Assembly: GCA_947471565.1 (NCBI GenBank)
Contig: CANIVT010000004.1
Span: 62,001-126,000, forward strand
From: Spartobacteria bacterium
GTDB lineage: Bacteria > Verrucomicrobiota > Verrucomicrobiia > Chthoniobacterales > UBA6821
Direction: 5' to 3'
DNA length: 64,000 nucleotides
The translations under genes were made by a program, and so were the position numbers. The notes under the pieces were generated by a model that worked only from the letters and a program-made list of their open reading frames with translations, made no database searches and was not told where the DNA came from. Position 1 is the first letter of the stretch, and every line of letters starts with the position of its first letter. Of this stretch, positions 41,430 through 48,840 are shown in pieces.

Positions 41430-42443
41430 TTAGCGGGTGAGCTGGCAGGAGTGGGCGGAAAATCCTGCGCCGAAGGAGGTGAGCCAGTAGGAGTCGGCAC
41501 CGCTTTCCAATGCCCGTTCGAGGGCGATCAGCACGGAGGGACTGCTGACATTGCCATAGTCCTGGAGCACGGAGCGGGATTCCGGGAGAGAGACCCCCAG
41601 CGTCGATTCCAAAGCATCCAGGACATCGCGGCCTCCGGTGTGAGCGACGACTTTTTCGGGATCGGACTCCCTGAGTGACCAGAGCGAGGAGACCGCCTCG
41701 GCGGCGATCACGGGAACCGAGCGGTGAAGCTGGTTTTTCAGTCGGCCATCCTTATTGACGAAGCGGACCTTTTCGCGATGTTCCGGAAGATGGAGTGTCC
41801 GGAATCCGGAGAACCGCAGGGCATTGCCAGCCGACACATCATCCCAGATCGCAGCAGCAGCGCCATCGCCAAAGAGACAGAGGCTGATCAAGACCCCGGG
41901 GTCATCATCGAGGTAGAACGCGGCCGAGCAGATTTCCACGGCGACCGTCCCGATCACGCTGCCCGGTCGGGCCTGCATCAATCCCCGTGCCGCCTCCAGC
42001 ATCGGGATGGCCGCACCGCATCCCAGACCAAGAAGATCTCCCAGATAGGCATCCGGTTTCATCCCTAGCCGCTCGGAGACATAGCTTGTGAGTCCTGGGC
42101 AGAGGTAACCCGTGCAGGTGCAGATCAGCAGGGCGTCCAGATCGGCGGGGCGTATCCCTGCCCGTTCGCAGGCTTTGGCAAGGGCGGTGGCCGCTAAGCG
42201 AGGGGCTTCTGCTTCGAACAAGGCGTGCAGCTCCCCGGCTCCGGCTCTGAGCAGGGCGGCGGGGGAGGGCGTTGCGAATCTGCGCGTCGTGATCCCGCTC
42301 TCCCCTCCGAGTACCTTCTGGAGGATCTGGGCTGAGCGTGGACGAACCGTTTCCAGGACCCCCGAATCACGGAGAAGAGTCAGGGACTCTGCCTGGGTCA
42401 ACCCTAGCTCCGGAAAGGCGGCGGCGATCGACCGGAGGTACAT
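41430..42443 (-). CDS. Type III polyketide synthase
   Basis: A 337-residue thiolase-fold enzyme of the chalcone synthase/alkylresorcinol synthase family. The catalytic Cys (about 142) is in [13 protein letters not shown], His (about 268) in [13 protein letters not shown] and Asn (about 298) in [12 protein letters not shown]. These enzymes extend an acyl starter with malonyl-CoA and cyclise it to resorcinols, pyrones or similar phenolic lipids. The start at 42443 overlaps the preceding stop as TGATG. Last gene of a three-gene operon with an FAD oxidoreductase and a methyltransferase. Confidence 0.9.
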
Positions 42444-43456
42444 CACCTAAGCGTACGGTAGATCATGCCAAAGGGAAGGAAACGCGCCATCCCGAGGTGC
42501 CTCACCCACCGCGTGCCGCGTGCATGGGTAATCACGGGATGAAGAAGATTGGCAGCACGTAGGCGCCTGCCGAATGCGCGGGAAGCCGCCTTGCTGTTCC
42601 GCACGGTTGCCTCGGTCCATGCGATACGGCCCTCTACATAGTCCAGAATCGGTGAGATGGAGTGGAAAGCGGCTTCGAGTGCCATGCTCATGCCGTTGCC
42701 TGTGAACGGCGGAATCATGGCGGCAGCGTCGCCGATCGAAAAGATCCCGGCATCATGCGGATCGAAGGAAATGCCGGCGACACCGCAGAAGCTGGTTGTA
42801 TCGGGGAGGGCGGAAGAGAGTCTTGCAGAGAGATCGGGCAATCCGATTTCCCGGAGATAGTGGTGGAGAATCTCGACGCCCTTGCTTCCGGATGGGTTGC
42901 GCTTTCGGAACAGACCGCAGACATTCACCCTGTCCTCCTCGATCCGGGCCAGACCGATGTATCCCGATCTTCCGACGTGCATTTCCAGATCATGGGTCAA
43001 CGGGAGGTCACGGAAGTGGCATTTCAAGCCCACCCAATCGGAGGCCCGCTTCGGCCGTCCCGCAGCCCAGACAACCCCTTCCTGCGCCGCCACGCTTTCG
43101 GCCCCAAGCCGCGATCCCGTCAAAAGAGCTCCACCCAGTTCGCGGAAACGGGTTTGAAGGCGGTCGTCGAGCAGGTGCCGCGAAATCCCGCGGCCTTCCA
43201 CTTCCATATCGCGCAGTGGGCCCTCCTCGTCGTGCCATCGGGAGCTTCGGAGCGGCACGGCATCCTCCAGAGCAAACGAAATGCCGAGGCATTCCAGCAC
43301 CTCGTCGGAGACACCGCTCAGAAACTCCCCGCAGACGCGGTGTCTCGGATACTCCGAGGCATCATGCAGGGTGACAGGGATGCCGCGCTCCCGCAGCGCG
43401 ATGCCAAGCGAAAGGCCGGCGAGCCCACCCCCGACGATGATGATGGAGCGTTTCAT
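42443..43456 (-). CDS. FAD-dependent oxidoreductase, geranylgeranyl-reductase/hydroxylase type
   Basis: A 337-residue flavoprotein with the N-terminal dinucleotide motif [19 protein letters not shown], the middle motif [12 protein letters not shown] and the FAD-binding [20 protein letters not shown]. The family includes geranylgeranyl reductases and aromatic hydroxylases. Between a methyltransferase and a type III PKS it most likely hydroxylates or oxidises the polyketide ring, or reduces an acyl chain. Both gene borders overlap. Confidence 0.85.
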
Positions 43457-44091
43457 ATCCGGATAGCGGCGAAGCGCAGGGTGCCGCGCCGGGTCACCGT
43501 TTCGCGGATTTCCCAGCGTGCGGTATCCAGACCGAGCAAGCGCGCCAACTCACCCTTCCGGAATCCTGCACGGATGCTTGCAGGCATATCATGACGGGTG
43601 ATCTCGCCAAAAAGAGGGGAGGCAAGCCCAGCCATCCGCAGAGGAAACATGCCGCGGTACGGCTCGGAAAAGAGCAGAAACGAGAATCGGCGAAACTCCC
43701 GTCCCAGGCGTCCGAGAGCGGAAGCGTCGAGATGATGGAGGATCAGCGAACCGTAACAGGCCTCGGCTTCCACCCCCGGGAGTGTCTGGAGGAAATCGCC
43801 ACGCATCCAGTGGATCGATGATGGAAGATCCCCGGTGCGTGCAATCAGGTCGAGCCCCGTGATCTCGCTTGCTGGATGGGCTGTATGGACACAGCTGCAG
43901 AGACGACCCTCCCCGGCGCCGAGCTCCACGTATCTGCGGCAGCGATCTTGAATCCGTCGGAGGGCTCGAAGGATCCAGCGGCTGTTCCCGAGAAAGAGAT
44001 CGAGGAACCGAAGATCTCGTCGGCTCCTTACCGCTCCGGGATCGGCTGGGTCGAGATGATCCAGAAGCTCCGTTTCCAGGATTCGGTTCAT
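43453..44091 (-). CDS. SAM-dependent methyltransferase of the polyketide operon
   Basis: A 212-residue class I methyltransferase. Motif I reads YVELGAGEGRLCS and the next strand gives EITGLDL; a later acidic strand lies near SLILHHLD. First gene of the operon; it probably O- or C-methylates the phenolic product made by the PKS two genes downstream. The stop overlaps the FAD gene start by ATGA. Confidence 0.75.
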   Translation of the reverse strand: MNRILETELLDHLDPADPGAVRSRRDLRFLDLFLGNSRWILRALRRIQDRCRRYVELGAGEGRLCSCVHTAHPASEITGLDLIARTGDLPSSIHWMRGDFLQTLPGVEAEACYGSLILHHLDASALGRLGREFRRFSFLLFSEPYRGMFPLRMAGLASPLFGEITRHDMPASIRAGFRKGELARLLGLDTARWEIRETVTRRGTLRFAAIRI

Positions 44092-44217: not shown

Positions 44218-44421
44218 ATGAAACCCCTCAGCAACCTCTGTTTCGTCCTAGGTCTGGCCTCCGTCATCGCCTCCATCGCCATCTGGTATTATGCCGGCGG
44301 CAAGGATGCCACGTTCGAGGCGCGCACCCATGGAGAACTTTTCGGGATCTTCGTCGGCCTTTGGGCCCCGACCTTCCTGATCCTCTCCAACCGCATCGCG
44401 CGGTATGTGGAATCAAAATAG
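44218..44421 (+). CDS. Small two-helix membrane protein
   Basis: A 67-residue protein with two transmembrane helices (LCFVLGLASVIASIAIWYYA and LFGIFVGLWAPTFLILS) and a basic end. AAGGGGGG precedes the ATG as ribosome-binding site. It has its own terminator. Function unknown. Confidence 0.7.
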   Translation: MKPLSNLCFVLGLASVIASIAIWYYAGGKDATFEARTHGELFGIFVGLWAPTFLILSNRIARYVESK

Positions 44422-44447
44422 TTCCCTTCTGATTTCAATCACGAATG

Positions 44448-44472
44448 GGCCGGGTCATTGACCCGGCCTTTT
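44448..44472 (+). terminator. Rho-independent terminator
   Basis: A perfect nine-base stem (GGCCGGGTC/GACCCGGCC) with a three-base loop is followed by TTTTC. It lies 26 bases after the small membrane-protein gene. Its position shows that the possible ATG start at 44445 of the next gene is not used. Confidence 0.85.
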
Positions 44473-44492
44473 CATTTTCTCAGACTACCCCT

Positions 44493-45500
44493 GTGGATTC
44501 GCCCAATTATCAACGTATTCGTCTCTGGTCAGGCATTACCTCCATCGGGGCCAACCTCGCCCTGATCTGGGGACTTGCCCTCAGTGCGTCGTGGTGGGCT
44601 GGTGATGTTCATGGTGCTTTGGCGGTTTTGGCGGTCCTTGGTGCCGTAGCCACCCTGGTGACCTTGGCCAATCTGCCTTTTGATATGCTCACCGGACATG
44701 CTGTGGAGCACGCAGTCGGTCGCACGGGCCAATCGGCAAGCGGCTGGTTGTTGGAATGGATCCGCGGTCGTTTCGTGACGTTGATCGGCCTCTGGTTCGG
44801 CATGGGTTATTTTTCGGCAATCCATCAAGCCCCCGGTGATGCCGTCGTCTCCCTGATCCTTGTCGCAGGAGTCGTGGTGATCCTTTTGTTTTTATTCGTT
44901 CCTGCCGGATATCCTGCCCCCAAGGGATCCTCCCATGAGGCGTTTGAAAAGAGCATGGCTGCGGAATCGGCTTCCTTGGCTGTGAAATCGAGACCGGTGC
45001 GGTGGTTCGATCTCGGAGATCAGGAAACGGTGAACGGCTGCATCACTCCCCGGGGTTTGCTTTCGCTCTCAACCTCGGTAGCCCAATGGCTTACGCCCCG
45101 TGAGGCAGCTCTCATCGCGGCCCGTGAGGAGTATTACCGGAGATCGGGAGCCTGGATCGTGAACCTGCTTATCGTGGTGGTGTGGACACTCCTGGGAATC
45201 TTGGCGGCATCCCTTCTGCCAAGCATGAACCCTGTGCAGGCAGGACTGGGCGGAGCCTCCGTCATGACTACCTGGTGCTTTCTGGCCCTTTTTGTCTGGC
45301 CGACACTGAATCGGTTCTGGATGCGGCGGGCCGACTCTTTTCTGGCCTCGCTGGCTACTCATGGAGAGGTACGTGATCTCTTGTCCAAGATCGAACGGCT
45401 CAACGCCACGGACATATCCCTCTCTCCTGCCAAGACGGCAGTCTTTCATCCCATCCCTCCGCTTCAGGAAAGGCTCACGAACCTGGACCGACGCTCATGA
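44493..45500 (+). CDS. M48 (Ste24/HtpX)-like membrane protein lacking the metal site, putative pseudoprotease
   Basis: A 335-residue protein with two N-terminal and two mid-C-terminal helix pairs. The region NGCITPRGLLSLSTSV-QWLTPREAALIAAREEYY follows the pattern of M48 peptidases, where the same place reads L-x-x-x-EL-x-AVLAHE-x-GH. Here HExxH is REEYY (211-215). The third ligand glutamate of the E-x-x-AD motif is Met267 (WMRRADSF). The C-terminal HPIPPLQERLTNLD matches the M48 HPPLEERI end. Fold retained, all zinc ligands lost. GTG 44493 was chosen because the ATG at 44445 lies inside a terminator. The stop overlaps a 40-codon ORF. Confidence 0.6.
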   Translation: MDSPNYQRIRLWSGITSIGANLALIWGLALSASWWAGDVHGALAVLAVLGAVATLVTLANLPFDMLTGHAVEHAVGRTGQSASGWLLEWIRGRFVTLIGLWFGMGYFSAIHQAPGDAVVSLILVAGVVVILLFLFVPAGYPAPKGSSHEAFEKSMAAESASLAVKSRPVRWFDLGDQETVNGCITPRGLLSLSTSVAQWLTPREAALIAAREEYYRRSGAWIVNLLIVVVWTLLGILAASLLPSMNPVQAGLGGASVMTTWCFLALFVWPTLNRFWMRRADSFLASLATHGEVRDLLSKIERLNATDISLSPAKTAVFHPIPPLQERLTNLDRRS

Positions 45501-45619
45501 ACCAGATCCCCCGCCTTCTTTTCTTTGTCACCCGTTGGTTCGGAAACGCCATCGGGACTTCTCTTCATTGTCATGTCGGGAAGCCTCGCTTCTGGAATCA
45601 CCCGCCCAACTGGTCGTGA
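45497..45619 (+). CDS. Possible 40-residue coupled small protein
   Basis: An ATG overlapping the previous stop (ATGA) opens 40 codons ending one base before the GTG start of the AlkB gene. The product has a hydrophobic-aromatic first half (IPRLLFFVTRWFGNAIG) and a His/Pro/Trp-rich end (HCHVGKPRFWNHPPNW). It bridges exactly the gap between two genes in an operon of overlapping genes, which argues for translation. No homologue is known to me. Confidence 0.4.
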   Translation: MNQIPRLLFFVTRWFGNAIGTSLHCHVGKPRFWNHPPNWS

Positions 45620-45620
45620 G

Positions 45621-46259
45621 GTGAATCAGCAGACCCTTTTTCAGGAAAGCGATCAGTCACTCCTGATCCGGGATGGGGTGGTGGAGTACATCCCGTCATT
45701 CTTTAGTCCTCCGGAAGCGGAGTCCCTTTTTCAGGAGTTGCTTGAGACGACACCGTGGCAGGAGGACGAAGTGGTGCTGTTCGGTCAACGCAGGAAACTC
45801 TCCCGCAAGGTGGCCTGGATGGGGGATTCCGGATTCACGTATTCCTACTCGGGTACCAGCAAGACAGCCTCCCAGTGGACGCCTGCACTGACGCTTGTGA
45901 AGGAGCGCGTTGAACGGCGGACGGCTCAACGATTCAACTCCTGTCTGCTCAATCTGTACCACGATGGTTCCGAGGGGATGGGATGGCACAGCGATGATGA
46001 AAAAACCCTTGGCCGTAATCCCGTGATCGCATCGGTTAGCTTTGGTGCCGAGAGGATCTTCAAACTGAAGCACAGGAAGTCCAAAGAAGTGGTGTCCGTG
46101 ATCCTGGAACAGGGCAGTCTCCTTGTGATGAAAGGAGAAACCCAGCACCACTGGGTTCATACTCTCCCCAAAACGAAGAAGATCTCCACTCCGCGGATCA
46201 ACCTGACCTTCCGGATGTTTGTCGGAGCCCGGTCTGATCTACAACCCGGGGAGTCATGA
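45621..46259 (+). CDS. alkB: AlkB-like 2-oxoglutarate/Fe(II) dioxygenase
   Basis: A 212-residue AlkB2/3-type dioxygenase that directly reverses alkyl lesions in DNA or RNA. The iron ligands are in GMGWHSDDE and QHHWVHTLPK, and the 2-oxoglutarate-binding arginines are in STPRINLTFRMF. The lesion-binding segment FTYSYSG is recognisable. The GTG at 45621 gives the usual short N-terminus (MNQQTLF); in-frame ATG 45573 is an alternative. It is coupled by ATGA to a flavoprotein gene, at the left border of a DNA-repair island. Confidence 0.88.
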   Translation: MNQQTLFQESDQSLLIRDGVVEYIPSFFSPPEAESLFQELLETTPWQEDEVVLFGQRRKLSRKVAWMGDSGFTYSYSGTSKTASQWTPALTLVKERVERRTAQRFNSCLLNLYHDGSEGMGWHSDDEKTLGRNPVIASVSFGAERIFKLKHRKSKEVVSVILEQGSLLVMKGETQHHWVHTLPKTKKISTPRINLTFRMFVGARSDLQPGES

Positions 46260-47293
46260 TTTACGACGCTGCGATCATCGGAGCGGGATTGAGCGGACTT
46301 TCGGCAGCCCGGCAACTTGCAGCTCAAGGCCTCGATGTTGTCATCGTGGAGAAAAGCTTGGGAACCGGCGGGCGTGCTGCCACGCGTAGGCTGGAATTAC
46401 CCGAGGGGGGACATGTGAGCGTTGATCATGGCGCCCAGTTTTTCACGGCGCGCGACCCTCTCTTCCGTCAACAGGTCGCCGGGTGGCTTGACCGGGGCGT
46501 TTGCTTCGAATGGAGCTCGGGATTCCACACGTGGGATGGAGCTTCCCTGCTTTCCCCCGATGACAGATGGAAAGAGCCCCGTTTTGCCTGCCATTCCGGG
46601 ATGAGTGCCCTTGGAAGGGATCTTGCCGAAGGATTGCAAATCATACGGGGATTTCGAGTAGTATCCGTCGATCGGAACGGGGAGGAATGGGTGCTTCATC
46701 CCATGGGGGAGAACTCCATGGAATCCATTCGTGCGAGGACGATCTTTTGTTCGGCGCCGGTTCCCCAATCGCTGGAATTGACCGGGCGCTACATCTCGGA
46801 GGATCAGCGGCGACTGCTTGGATTACTTTCTTACGGGCCCTGCCTTGCGGTCATGGCTCTTTATAAGGATAAAAAACATCACCCAAGTTGGAAGGGTGTC
46901 CAGGTCCGGAATCCGGGATCATCGCTTTCGTGGATGGCGTGGGATTCTACGCGCCGGGATAGGGAACATCTGGCGGATGCGGCAGTGTTTCATTCCTCCG
47001 TCGATTTTGCCTCACGTTCCGGACTGGACTCTGCGGATGGGAAGCAACTGGCCGCCAGTGAGATGCTCCGCGATGCCGCCAGGATCGGCGGAGAATGGAT
47101 CGAGCATCCTTCCCAGACGAGTGTTCATTTCTGGCGCTATGCCATTCCGCTTGGGGAGGGTGTTGAGAGAGGGTTTCTCCGTTCCGAAGAAAACCCTGAA
47201 CTTTATTTCATCGGAGACGGCCTGCAGGGAGGACGCATTGAGGGGGCGTGGCTCTCGGGATTCAAGGCAACACAGGACTATCTTCTATCTTGA
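46256..47293 (+). CDS. Renalase-like FAD-dependent oxidoreductase
   Basis: A 345-residue flavoprotein with the Rossmann motif AAIIGAGLSGLSAARQLAAQG, the second-motif region EKSLGTGGRAATRR, SVDHGAQFFTARD, and a C-terminal FAD segment FIGDGLQGGRIEGAWLSG. This pattern matches bacterial renalase-like/NAD(P)-binding amine oxidase family proteins, often found near photolyase genes. The substrate may be an isomeric NAD(P)H, as for characterised renalases, but this is not shown here. Confidence 0.82.
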   Translation: MIYDAAIIGAGLSGLSAARQLAAQGLDVVIVEKSLGTGGRAATRRLELPEGGHVSVDHGAQFFTARDPLFRQQVAGWLDRGVCFEWSSGFHTWDGASLLSPDDRWKEPRFACHSGMSALGRDLAEGLQIIRGFRVVSVDRNGEEWVLHPMGENSMESIRARTIFCSAPVPQSLELTGRYISEDQRRLLGLLSYGPCLAVMALYKDKKHHPSWKGVQVRNPGSSLSWMAWDSTRRDREHLADAAVFHSSVDFASRSGLDSADGKQLAASEMLRDAARIGGEWIEHPSQTSVHFWRYAIPLGEGVERGFLRSEENPELYFIGDGLQGGRIEGAWLSGFKATQDYLLS

Positions 47294-47370: not shown

Positions 47371-47619
47371 GTGCCGGATATCCACACTGATCAGATTTCG
47401 CTAGTAATCCGACTGGCTTGGGAGGATCGAACGAGCTTCGAGGAGATCAAGGAACGGACGGGTCTTGTCGAGCGTGAGGTCATCGAGATCATGCGGCGGG
47501 AACTCAAGCCATCAAGTTTTACCATGTGGAGAAAACGGGTCGGAGGCCGAGTGACAAAACACCGGAAGCTGCTGGAGCGGCGCTTGAAATACGCGCCTCA
47601 TGAGGACTCCGATTACTAG
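47371..47619 (+). CDS. TIGR03643/DUF2805 family small protein
   Basis: An 82-residue basic protein with family segments IRLAWEDRTSFEEI, EREVIEIMRRELKP and FTMWRKRVGGRVTKH. The first half looks like a helix-turn-helix. It starts at GTG 47371. Members occur beside cryptochrome/photolyase genes, as here, where the converging neighbour is a photolyase. Molecular function unknown; DNA binding is plausible. Confidence 0.85.
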   Translation: MPDIHTDQISLVIRLAWEDRTSFEEIKERTGLVEREVIEIMRRELKPSSFTMWRKRVGGRVTKHRKLLERRLKYAPHEDSDY

Positions 47620-47637: not shown

Positions 47638-48840
47638 CTACGCGACCAGTGACAGCTGTGTGAGCACGGAGGGTATCCGCTCCTTCAACTTGAAAAATCC
47701 ATGGGTGGCGTGCGGCCAGAATGCCTCATCCCAAGGACGACGTAGTTTTCGTAGCGCAACCTGGTTGCTTGCCAGATCGGAGAGCATCGGTTCGATCAGA
47801 CTGCGGATCGGGCCAACAGGCGGATTCATGATGCTGAAGCTATCCGCGCCACTTTCCTGCAGAAGGGTATGCAAGTTCGCTAATGGTGATTCCTCACTAA
47901 GATGGAGTCGATGGACCGGGCACTGAAATCCGGCTTCCAAGCGAGCAGCGGTTTCCTCGATCGCTTTGTTCTTCCATGCCGCGGGCAGGGCGCCGATTCC
48001 AGGGTAAGACTCAGCCGCATGAAGAAGAACGATGGCGGAGACATCGCTCTGTGGAATACCCCAATCCTCCGGAAGCAGATCCTCTTCCGTGACGAGAAGA
48101 ACCGTGTTTTCGCCGACAACATGTTGATCCGGACGAGACAATGGGAGTAACGGGTGGATGGTGAAAGACTCCTTAATCAGAGGAGCTTCCTGAGCCAGGA
48201 GGCCGTGTGGGGAATAAAGGCCGTTCGTGAAGCGCTCGATATTCCCGGCGGTGGCCAGATAGACCTTTCCCTGAGTCTGCAATCCGCAGACCCAGCGCCA
48301 TGAGAGGGTGTTGGACGCAGGGTCTCCGTCGAGAAGGTGCCTCATGAAGAAGTCGGCTCCGAGTTGCCAGGGCAGACCCAGCGTATGAATCCAGATGCTC
48401 GCAAACCACATGCGGACATGATTGTGAAGCCATCCGGTGCTGCGGAGTTCGCATGCCCAGGCATCGAGACAATCAATTCCTGTGAGGCCCTGCTCAGCTG
48501 CCGCAACGCGGGCAGTCAGATCATAATCACTCGCCATGGAGGCACGCAGCACATCGAGATCGCGGAGGTAGTTACTCCAGACGGCAGGCCGCATCTCCAA
48601 CCACCCCTTCCAATAAGTACGCCAGCAGATTTCCTGAATGAATTTTTCCGTTTCCTGAAGGGAATGTCTTTTAAGTACCTCGCCAACAATCTCGGGTTCC
48701 GTGATGAAACGGTGGCGCACATAGGGAGAAAGTCCGGAAACAACGCCGGGAACAAAATTGCGTCCCTCTGCATAACTGATACCGGCCAGTGGTAAAAACT
48801 GCTCGAGCTTGAGCAGGGCATCCGCACGTGTGGGATTCAT
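47638..48840 (-). CDS. Cryptochrome/photolyase-type flavoprotein with permuted domain order
   Basis: A 400-residue protein. The FAD-binding helical domain comes first: KFIQEICWRTYWKGWLE, STGWLHNHVRMWFAS, LPWQLGADFFMRHLLDGDP and SNTLSWRWVCGL are typical of photolyases. The usual N-terminal alpha/beta antenna domain is missing there. Instead, the C-terminal 150 residues look alpha/beta (VLLVTEEDLLPEDW, GADSFSIMNPPVGPIRSL, FWPHATHGFFKLKERIP), as if the two domains were exchanged. It may repair DNA or sense light. It faces the TIGR03643 gene, a known companion of such proteins. Confidence 0.72.
   Translation of the reverse strand: MNPTRADALLKLEQFLPLAGISYAEGRNFVPGVVSGLSPYVRHRFITEPEIVGEVLKRHSLQETEKFIQEICWRTYWKGWLEMRPAVWSNYLRDLDVLRASMASDYDLTARVAAAEQGLTGIDCLDAWACELRSTGWLHNHVRMWFASIWIHTLGLPWQLGADFFMRHLLDGDPASNTLSWRWVCGLQTQGKVYLATAGNIERFTNGLYSPHGLLAQEAPLIKESFTIHPLLPLSRPDQHVVGENTVLLVTEEDLLPEDWGIPQSDVSAIVLLHAAESYPGIGALPAAWKNKAIEETAARLEAGFQCPVHRLHLSEESPLANLHTLLQESGADSFSIMNPPVGPIRSLIEPMLSDLASNQVALRKLRRPWDEAFWPHATHGFFKLKERIPSVLTQLSLVA

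Follow-up and report, generated by a model that had tools for sequence, protein, structure and literature searches.

Apart from the family described here, the intramembrane chamber of Ste24 is known from lamin and CAAX processing. The closest described proteins are the M48A CAAX prenyl proteases Ste24p and ZMPSTE24 (4il3, 4aw6 and 2ypt), with which the pseudoprotease of this work shares the full-length membrane fold, the invariant Asp281 and Arg327, Glu72 (in its clade C1) and the C-terminal HP..RL region. It differs from them in the replacement of all three zinc ligands and in the presence, in its family, of a separate microprotein or a fused C-terminal segment. It is also shorter than ZMPSTE24, the alignment beginning at ZMPSTE24 residue 65, whose first helix has no counterpart. 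The iRhoms, pseudoproteases of the rhomboid family, likewise keep a membrane protease fold with catalysis lost clade-wide, and act on an unrelated protease. Their fold and family are unrelated to those of our protein, which is bacterial, has no active paralogue in its genome and is linked to DNA-repair genes. The Ste24 fold is able to act without cleaving, since the catalytically dead ZMPSTE24-E336A remains antiviral and surpasses the wild type in binding IFITM3 (PMC9601121). In that case a small membrane protein is bound by a catalytically inactive Ste24 protein, a likeness to the pair described below, with the differences that the role is eukaryotic and antiviral, that the wild-type enzyme is active and that IFITM3 is unrelated to our microprotein by anything tested. 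Finally, photolyase, FAD-dependent oxidoreductase and SDR genes are grouped in the light-inducible LitR/PplR clusters of Pseudomonas (PMC9758184). The present locus, to judge by its genes, also brings photolyase and flavin-enzyme genes together in the manner of a LitR/CarH-type cluster, whereas no Ste24-fold pseudoprotease or microprotein is named among the Pseudomonas cluster genes.

The window, a 64,000-nucleotide stretch of a Spartobacteria bacterium contig, contains the following features around the pseudoprotease gene:

44218 to 44421, forward strand: 67-aa small membrane protein with its own terminator, conserved upstream in the genus (an association only).
44447 to 44469, forward strand: hairpin forming the intrinsic terminator of the upstream gene, with a likely -35 element, TTGACC (44458-44463), in its 3' half.
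44481 to 44486, forward strand: putative -10 element, CAGACT here and TAAAAT in two of the relatives, separated from TTGACC by 17 nt and from the start codon by 6 nt.
44493 to 45500, forward strand: Ste24-fold pseudoprotease of clade C1, 335 aa, GTG start, assigned by fold, profile homology, tree and purifying selection.
45123 to 45137, forward strand: REEYY, residues 211-215, at the HExxH position (hhalign and joint alignment).
45321 to 45323, forward strand: Met277, at the third zinc ligand position (joint alignment and tree).
45333 to 45335, forward strand: ExxxAD-motif residue Asp281, unchanged in dead and live forms alike and the proposed partner of Arg211.
45497 to 45619, forward strand: 40-aa microprotein MNQIPRLLFFVTRWFGNAIGTSLHCHVGKPRFWNHPPNWS, recognised by pN/pS and by homology to a C2 motif; its ATG overlaps the pseudoprotease TGA (ATGA) and a single nucleotide separates its stop from the AlkB GTG.
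45621 to 46259, forward strand: AlkB-type 2OG-Fe(II) oxygenase (PF13532, E 7.8e-42), true start GTG 45621.
46256 to 47293, forward strand: FAD-dependent amine-oxidase-type flavoprotein, in some genus members only.
47371 to 47619, forward strand: DUF2805/TIGR03643 protein, linked in the genus.
47638 to 48840, reverse strand: short photolyase-like protein of 400 aa with an N-terminal FAD-binding domain, linked in the genus and recurrently elsewhere.

The pseudoprotease ORF is genuine, and the coordinates 44493-45500 given by an earlier, sequence-only reading are correct. Its start codon is the GTG at 44493, relatives starting at the equivalent position. A longer ORF from the in-frame ATG at 44445 was rejected, as it crosses the terminator hairpin and its frame is not maintained in relatives. 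At nine loci of the genus, TTGACC lies in the 3' half of the hairpin and is followed, 16-17 nt downstream, by a YANNNT hexamer 5-6 nt before the start codon. The arrangement suggests that the operon is transcribed from a promoter of its own, lying within the terminator, as a leaderless mRNA; the candidate promoter was not called by a standard promoter scan. An RNA gene was excluded as the source of the hairpin because tRNA, tmRNA and Rfam searches were negative.

The similarity to known families is faint at the level of the single sequence. The Pfam match to PF16491 (Peptidase_M48_N) scores 22.8 bits, below the gathering cut-off of 27 (E 9.5e-5), NCBIfam holds no usable model for the family, and phmmer with the pseudoprotease sequence found no match in the PDB. 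A profile of 13 relatives searched against the PDB retrieved, by sequence alone, yeast-type Ste24p (4il3) with an E-value of 1.9e-5 and human ZMPSTE24 with one of 1.5e-3. Profile-profile comparison with intact Ste24-type enzymes of the same order (hhalign) gave a probability of 97.1 and an E-value of 4.8e-11, in a register that sets REEYY opposite HEMGH and FWMRRADSF opposite TTEREADAF. The AlphaFold model of the pseudoprotease (pLDDT 88, pTM 0.80) matched ZMPSTE24 in Foldseek with an E-value of 3.5e-9, and the C1 model superposed on ZMPSTE24 (VIA) with a Z score of 20.6 and an rmsd of 3.7 over 328 of its 335 residues. The M48 frame that had been read from the sequence is thus beyond chance and has a structural match within M48, in the Ste24 subfamily. 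As modelled, the protein is a complete Ste24/ZMPSTE24-type membrane fold. The earlier description of it as a relative of Ste24/HtpX stands as regards Ste24, to which it is nearer than to HtpX.

C1 orthologues occur in 11 of the 16 genomes of the genus and also elsewhere in the order, in further genera and families; relatives with a name are freshwater "Spartobacteria" and Chthoniobacterales MAGs. A sister clade, C2, whose proteins have about 360 aa, extends into several further families of the class. Pfam has no model for the C2 proteins, and their direct hhalign comparison with intact Ste24 was not significant (probability 2.6). Their tie to Ste24 comes from the hhalign match between C1 and C2 (probability 99.2) together with the C2 model, which likewise has the Ste24 fold (Z 19.3 to ZMPSTE24, 311 residues aligned). 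The family was not found described in the non-subscription literature searched for M48/Ste24 pseudoproteases. Some copies have decayed: that of G010 has a GTT start and an internal TGA (L008), that of G047 is pseudogenised by an internal deletion and a frameshift (L153, G047:C40), and G481, from a different family, keeps only remnants of the pseudoprotease and microprotein genes (L155, G481:C78:7500-12500). The decay in G010 and G047 shows the pseudoprotease gene to be dispensable in some lineages. The G481 remnants adjoin intact AlkB and ADP-ribosylglycohydrolase genes, proteorhodopsin and carotenoid-type genes, a cassette that suggests horizontal transfer. Proteorhodopsin is common in the genus, and its presence does not track the pseudoprotease.

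The replacement of HExxH by REEYY (residues 211-215) and of the third ligand by methionine (Met277), both noted from the sequence alone, is confirmed. In a joint alignment of 62 proteins, comprising 34 dead forms (C1 and C2) and 28 live Ste24-type homologues, position 211 is Arg in 34/34 dead and His in 28/28 live proteins. His at position 215 and Glu at position 277 are found in 28/28 live proteins and never in dead ones, position 277 being occupied by Met (ten proteins), Asn, Val, His or Tyr in C1 and by Val in 20/20 C2 proteins. All three zinc ligands are therefore missing in every dead relative and present in every intact homologue. Position 212 is Glu or Asp in C1 and Arg in all of C2. 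Asp281 and Arg327 are invariant (62/62), and Arg274 is found in 60/62. None of the C1 or C2 proteins inspected, close or distant, has HExxH, so that the loss is a conserved feature and not a local mutation of this copy; the weaker matches that reach live Ste24 enzymes all carry the motif, and two further weak matches, also without it, are unrelated proteins. A tree built without the active-site columns places the dead proteins on one side of a single branch with a support of 100/100, a value tempered by the roughness of the bootstrap and by two C2 branches that are long. To judge from these sequences, the ligand loss is ancient and fixed across the whole branch.

The dead site is under selection, since dN/dS is 0.13-0.22 among intact copies and the former catalytic core is conserved: within the genus, invariant columns make up 63-65% of residues 166-218 versus 20-38% of residues 1-165, and the C-terminal stretches 246-272 and 318-335 are as conserved as the core. 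The invariant Arg that occupies the position of the first His, together with the invariance of the old ExxxD Asp, suggests that an Arg211-Asp281 salt bridge has taken the place of zinc. Zinc-dependent peptidase activity is predicted to be absent because of the ligand loss. Like pseudoproteases in general, the protein keeps a protease fold while the catalytic residues are gone from every member of a conserved clade, and it is almost certainly a non-peptidase homologue of Ste24.

The pseudoprotease gene had been placed in a coupled operon with AlkB and the flavoprotein. The coupling is right, with ATGA overlaps (also at the AlkB-flavoprotein junction) and a 1-nt gap, but it runs only via the overlooked 40-aa ORF, which, with the photolyase/DUF2805 linkage, is new relative to the earlier reading. 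Changes in the microprotein are nearly all synonymous (pooled pN 0.017, pS 0.66, ratio 0.026), a constraint about ten times that of the pseudoprotease. The microprotein lies 3' of the pseudoprotease in 15 of the 17 examined C1 loci with a readable gene, and was traced out to the G016/G021 and G024/G102 genera. It had no match among Pfam or NCBIfam models, and the ORF is apparently undescribed so far. The spacing between the two genes varies across loci from an overlap or a longer overlap to 5-8 nt apart and, in G016, a 202-nt gap. A -1 frameshift fusing the two products was rejected, as their relative frame and distance vary and the microprotein keeps its own ATG.

In C2, the microprotein is found as a fused motif, (R/S)xxHCxVG(K/R)PxxW...PP, at the C-terminus of the pseudoprotease itself. 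The homology between microprotein and C2 C-terminus has E-values of 1e-9 to 2e-7 in a 13-protein set, the R, H, C, G, P and W of the motif are invariant in 12/12 C2 C-termini, and the motif lies outside the Ste24 fold, the aligned range of the model being 1-317. Its His and Cys are nearly invariant, with Cys changed to Ser in one C1 copy (L068). Among 384 genomes of the class, the motif is present in 25 of the 27 that bear the pseudoprotease; the exceptions are G010, with its decayed copy, and G043, where the start is kept and the motif lost while the C1 pseudoprotease looks intact. The sole other clear match in the 384 genomes is in G481, with its decayed pseudoprotease remnant. Weak matches in G018, G339 and G522 (21-23 bits) were not accepted, and plasmids gave only insignificant matches to the microprotein (E-values of 2 or above). 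Genes split in one clade and fused in another are a classic sign of a physical complex, so the pseudoprotease and the microprotein probably form one.

Regarding the neighbourhood, the gene order of the genus is small membrane protein, terminator, pseudoprotease, microprotein, AlkB, flavoprotein (in some members), DUF2805, short photolyase and ADP-ribosylglycohydrolase. It is kept apart from G002 (L022) and G013 (L021), in which an insertion of about 5 kb separates the small gene from the pseudoprotease, the first ~33 pseudoprotease codons being duplicated at its far end. The pseudoprotease, the short photolyase and DUF2805 share one presence pattern among the 16 genus genomes (all three in 11, none in the other 5), and outside the genus a photolyase-domain gene lies within 10 kb of the pseudoprotease in 7/29 genomes from five families, against 0.28 expected; these co-occurrence and linkage counts ignore shared ancestry. 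AlkB is found in 10 of the 11 pseudoprotease-bearing genomes of the genus. No photolyase is nearby in 22/29 outer relatives, and in G016, G024 and G102 the pseudoprotease neighbours are unrelated to light. The photolyase linkage is thus recurrent, not universal. Other neighbours among the relatives are COG3380-like flavoproteins, SDR and DUF2071 genes.

The short photolyase is the type linked in most cases. Its N-terminal 190 residues match residues 225-411 (the FAD domain) of class I photolyases, with no preceding antenna domain, and a profile search with its C-terminal 200 residues matched nothing; a circular permutation was rejected, as these residues match no canonical N-terminal photolyase domain. 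The 67-aa small membrane protein is also found beside the decayed G481 cassette. On the reverse strand, 41430-44091 encodes a chalcone-synthase-like type III PKS, an FAD oxidoreductase and a methyltransferase, which are absent from this position in the other genus loci examined.

The best reading of the locus, held with moderate confidence, is a two-part complex that captures a client or serves as a scaffold in the membrane, without proteolysis, within a light-damage response module. The pseudoprotease would be an obligate non-peptidase Ste24 (M48A) membrane barrel that retains the shape and part of the substrate-binding framework, with the zinc site swapped for a metal-free one formed by Arg211, probably paired with Asp281. 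It would be co-produced with the 40-residue, probably membrane-associated microprotein, and the pair would most likely act as one complex, of which C2 would be the fused version. This complex may bind or hold a client from the membrane, either a lipid or a segment of a protein, inside the old protease chamber and leave it uncut. Holding the client would serve the response to sunlight or to alkylation or oxidative damage that the linked photolyase, AlkB, flavoprotein and DUF2805 genes would carry out. That the protein probably holds something in the membrane, and does not cut it, follows from the branch-wide replacement of the ligands, the overlapping microprotein and the light-damage repair neighbours, and the regulatory, scaffold or substrate-capture role proposed by the sequence-only reading is plausible. 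The role of the cassette in a light-damage response is, taken by itself, somewhat probable; the whole combination of non-peptidase, complex, light-damage role and client capture ranges from tentative to moderately likely.

A regulator in the manner of the iRhoms, acting on another membrane protease (e.g., FtsH) or on its substrates, with the light-gene neighbourhood incidental, is unlikely. It would be of the same general type, with the fold kept and the catalytic residues lost clade-wide, and the strong conservation of the former substrate-binding core fits it. However, the operon contains no gene recognised as a protease, the linked genes code for repair and flavin enzymes, and the host genome is without an active M48 partner. 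No PF01435 protease was found there, which makes a partnership with an active M48 paralogue unlikely and argues against an M48 partner only. A new enzyme is improbable: Arg211, Glu212 (or Arg), Asp281 and Arg327, together with the HCxVG(K/R)P of the microprotein, would act on a membrane lipid in another kind of reaction, one that may depend on a metal or cofactor. The invariance of Arg211, Asp281 and Arg327 in both clades and the near-invariant His and Cys of the microprotein agree with such a site, whereas the clade dependence of residue 212 and the Cys-to-Ser change in L068 fit structure or binding better than shared catalysis. An active zinc protease with unusual ligands, for which the kept fold, Asp281 and Arg327 and the acidic residue 212 of C1 could be invoked, is very improbable, as the His positions are occupied by Arg and non-His residues and the Glu position by M/N/V/H/Y or V, with no replacement ligand set conserved across clades. 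Decay, local mutation or sequencing error, genuine as decay is in G010, G047 and G481, is refuted for the copy in the window by the dN/dS of intact copies, the intact frames in most genomes and the class-wide fixation, and has a negligible probability.

If the reading as a capture or scaffold complex is true, this is a Ste24-fold pseudoprotease family fixed across a bacterial class, its natural split and fused forms identify the binding partner of the pseudoprotease, and the photolyase and AlkB repair genes are tied to an unrecognised membrane component. The partner is a strongly selected 40-aa gene for which Pfam and NCBIfam have no model. In its widest form, which we put forward tentatively and with less than moderate confidence, the class-wide, metal-free Ste24-fold pseudoproteases and their ultra-conserved microprotein would make up a two-component machine, the membrane arm of a bacterial photodamage response. 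The family offers a route to studying the cleavage-free function of the Ste24 chamber, a question already open for ZMPSTE24.
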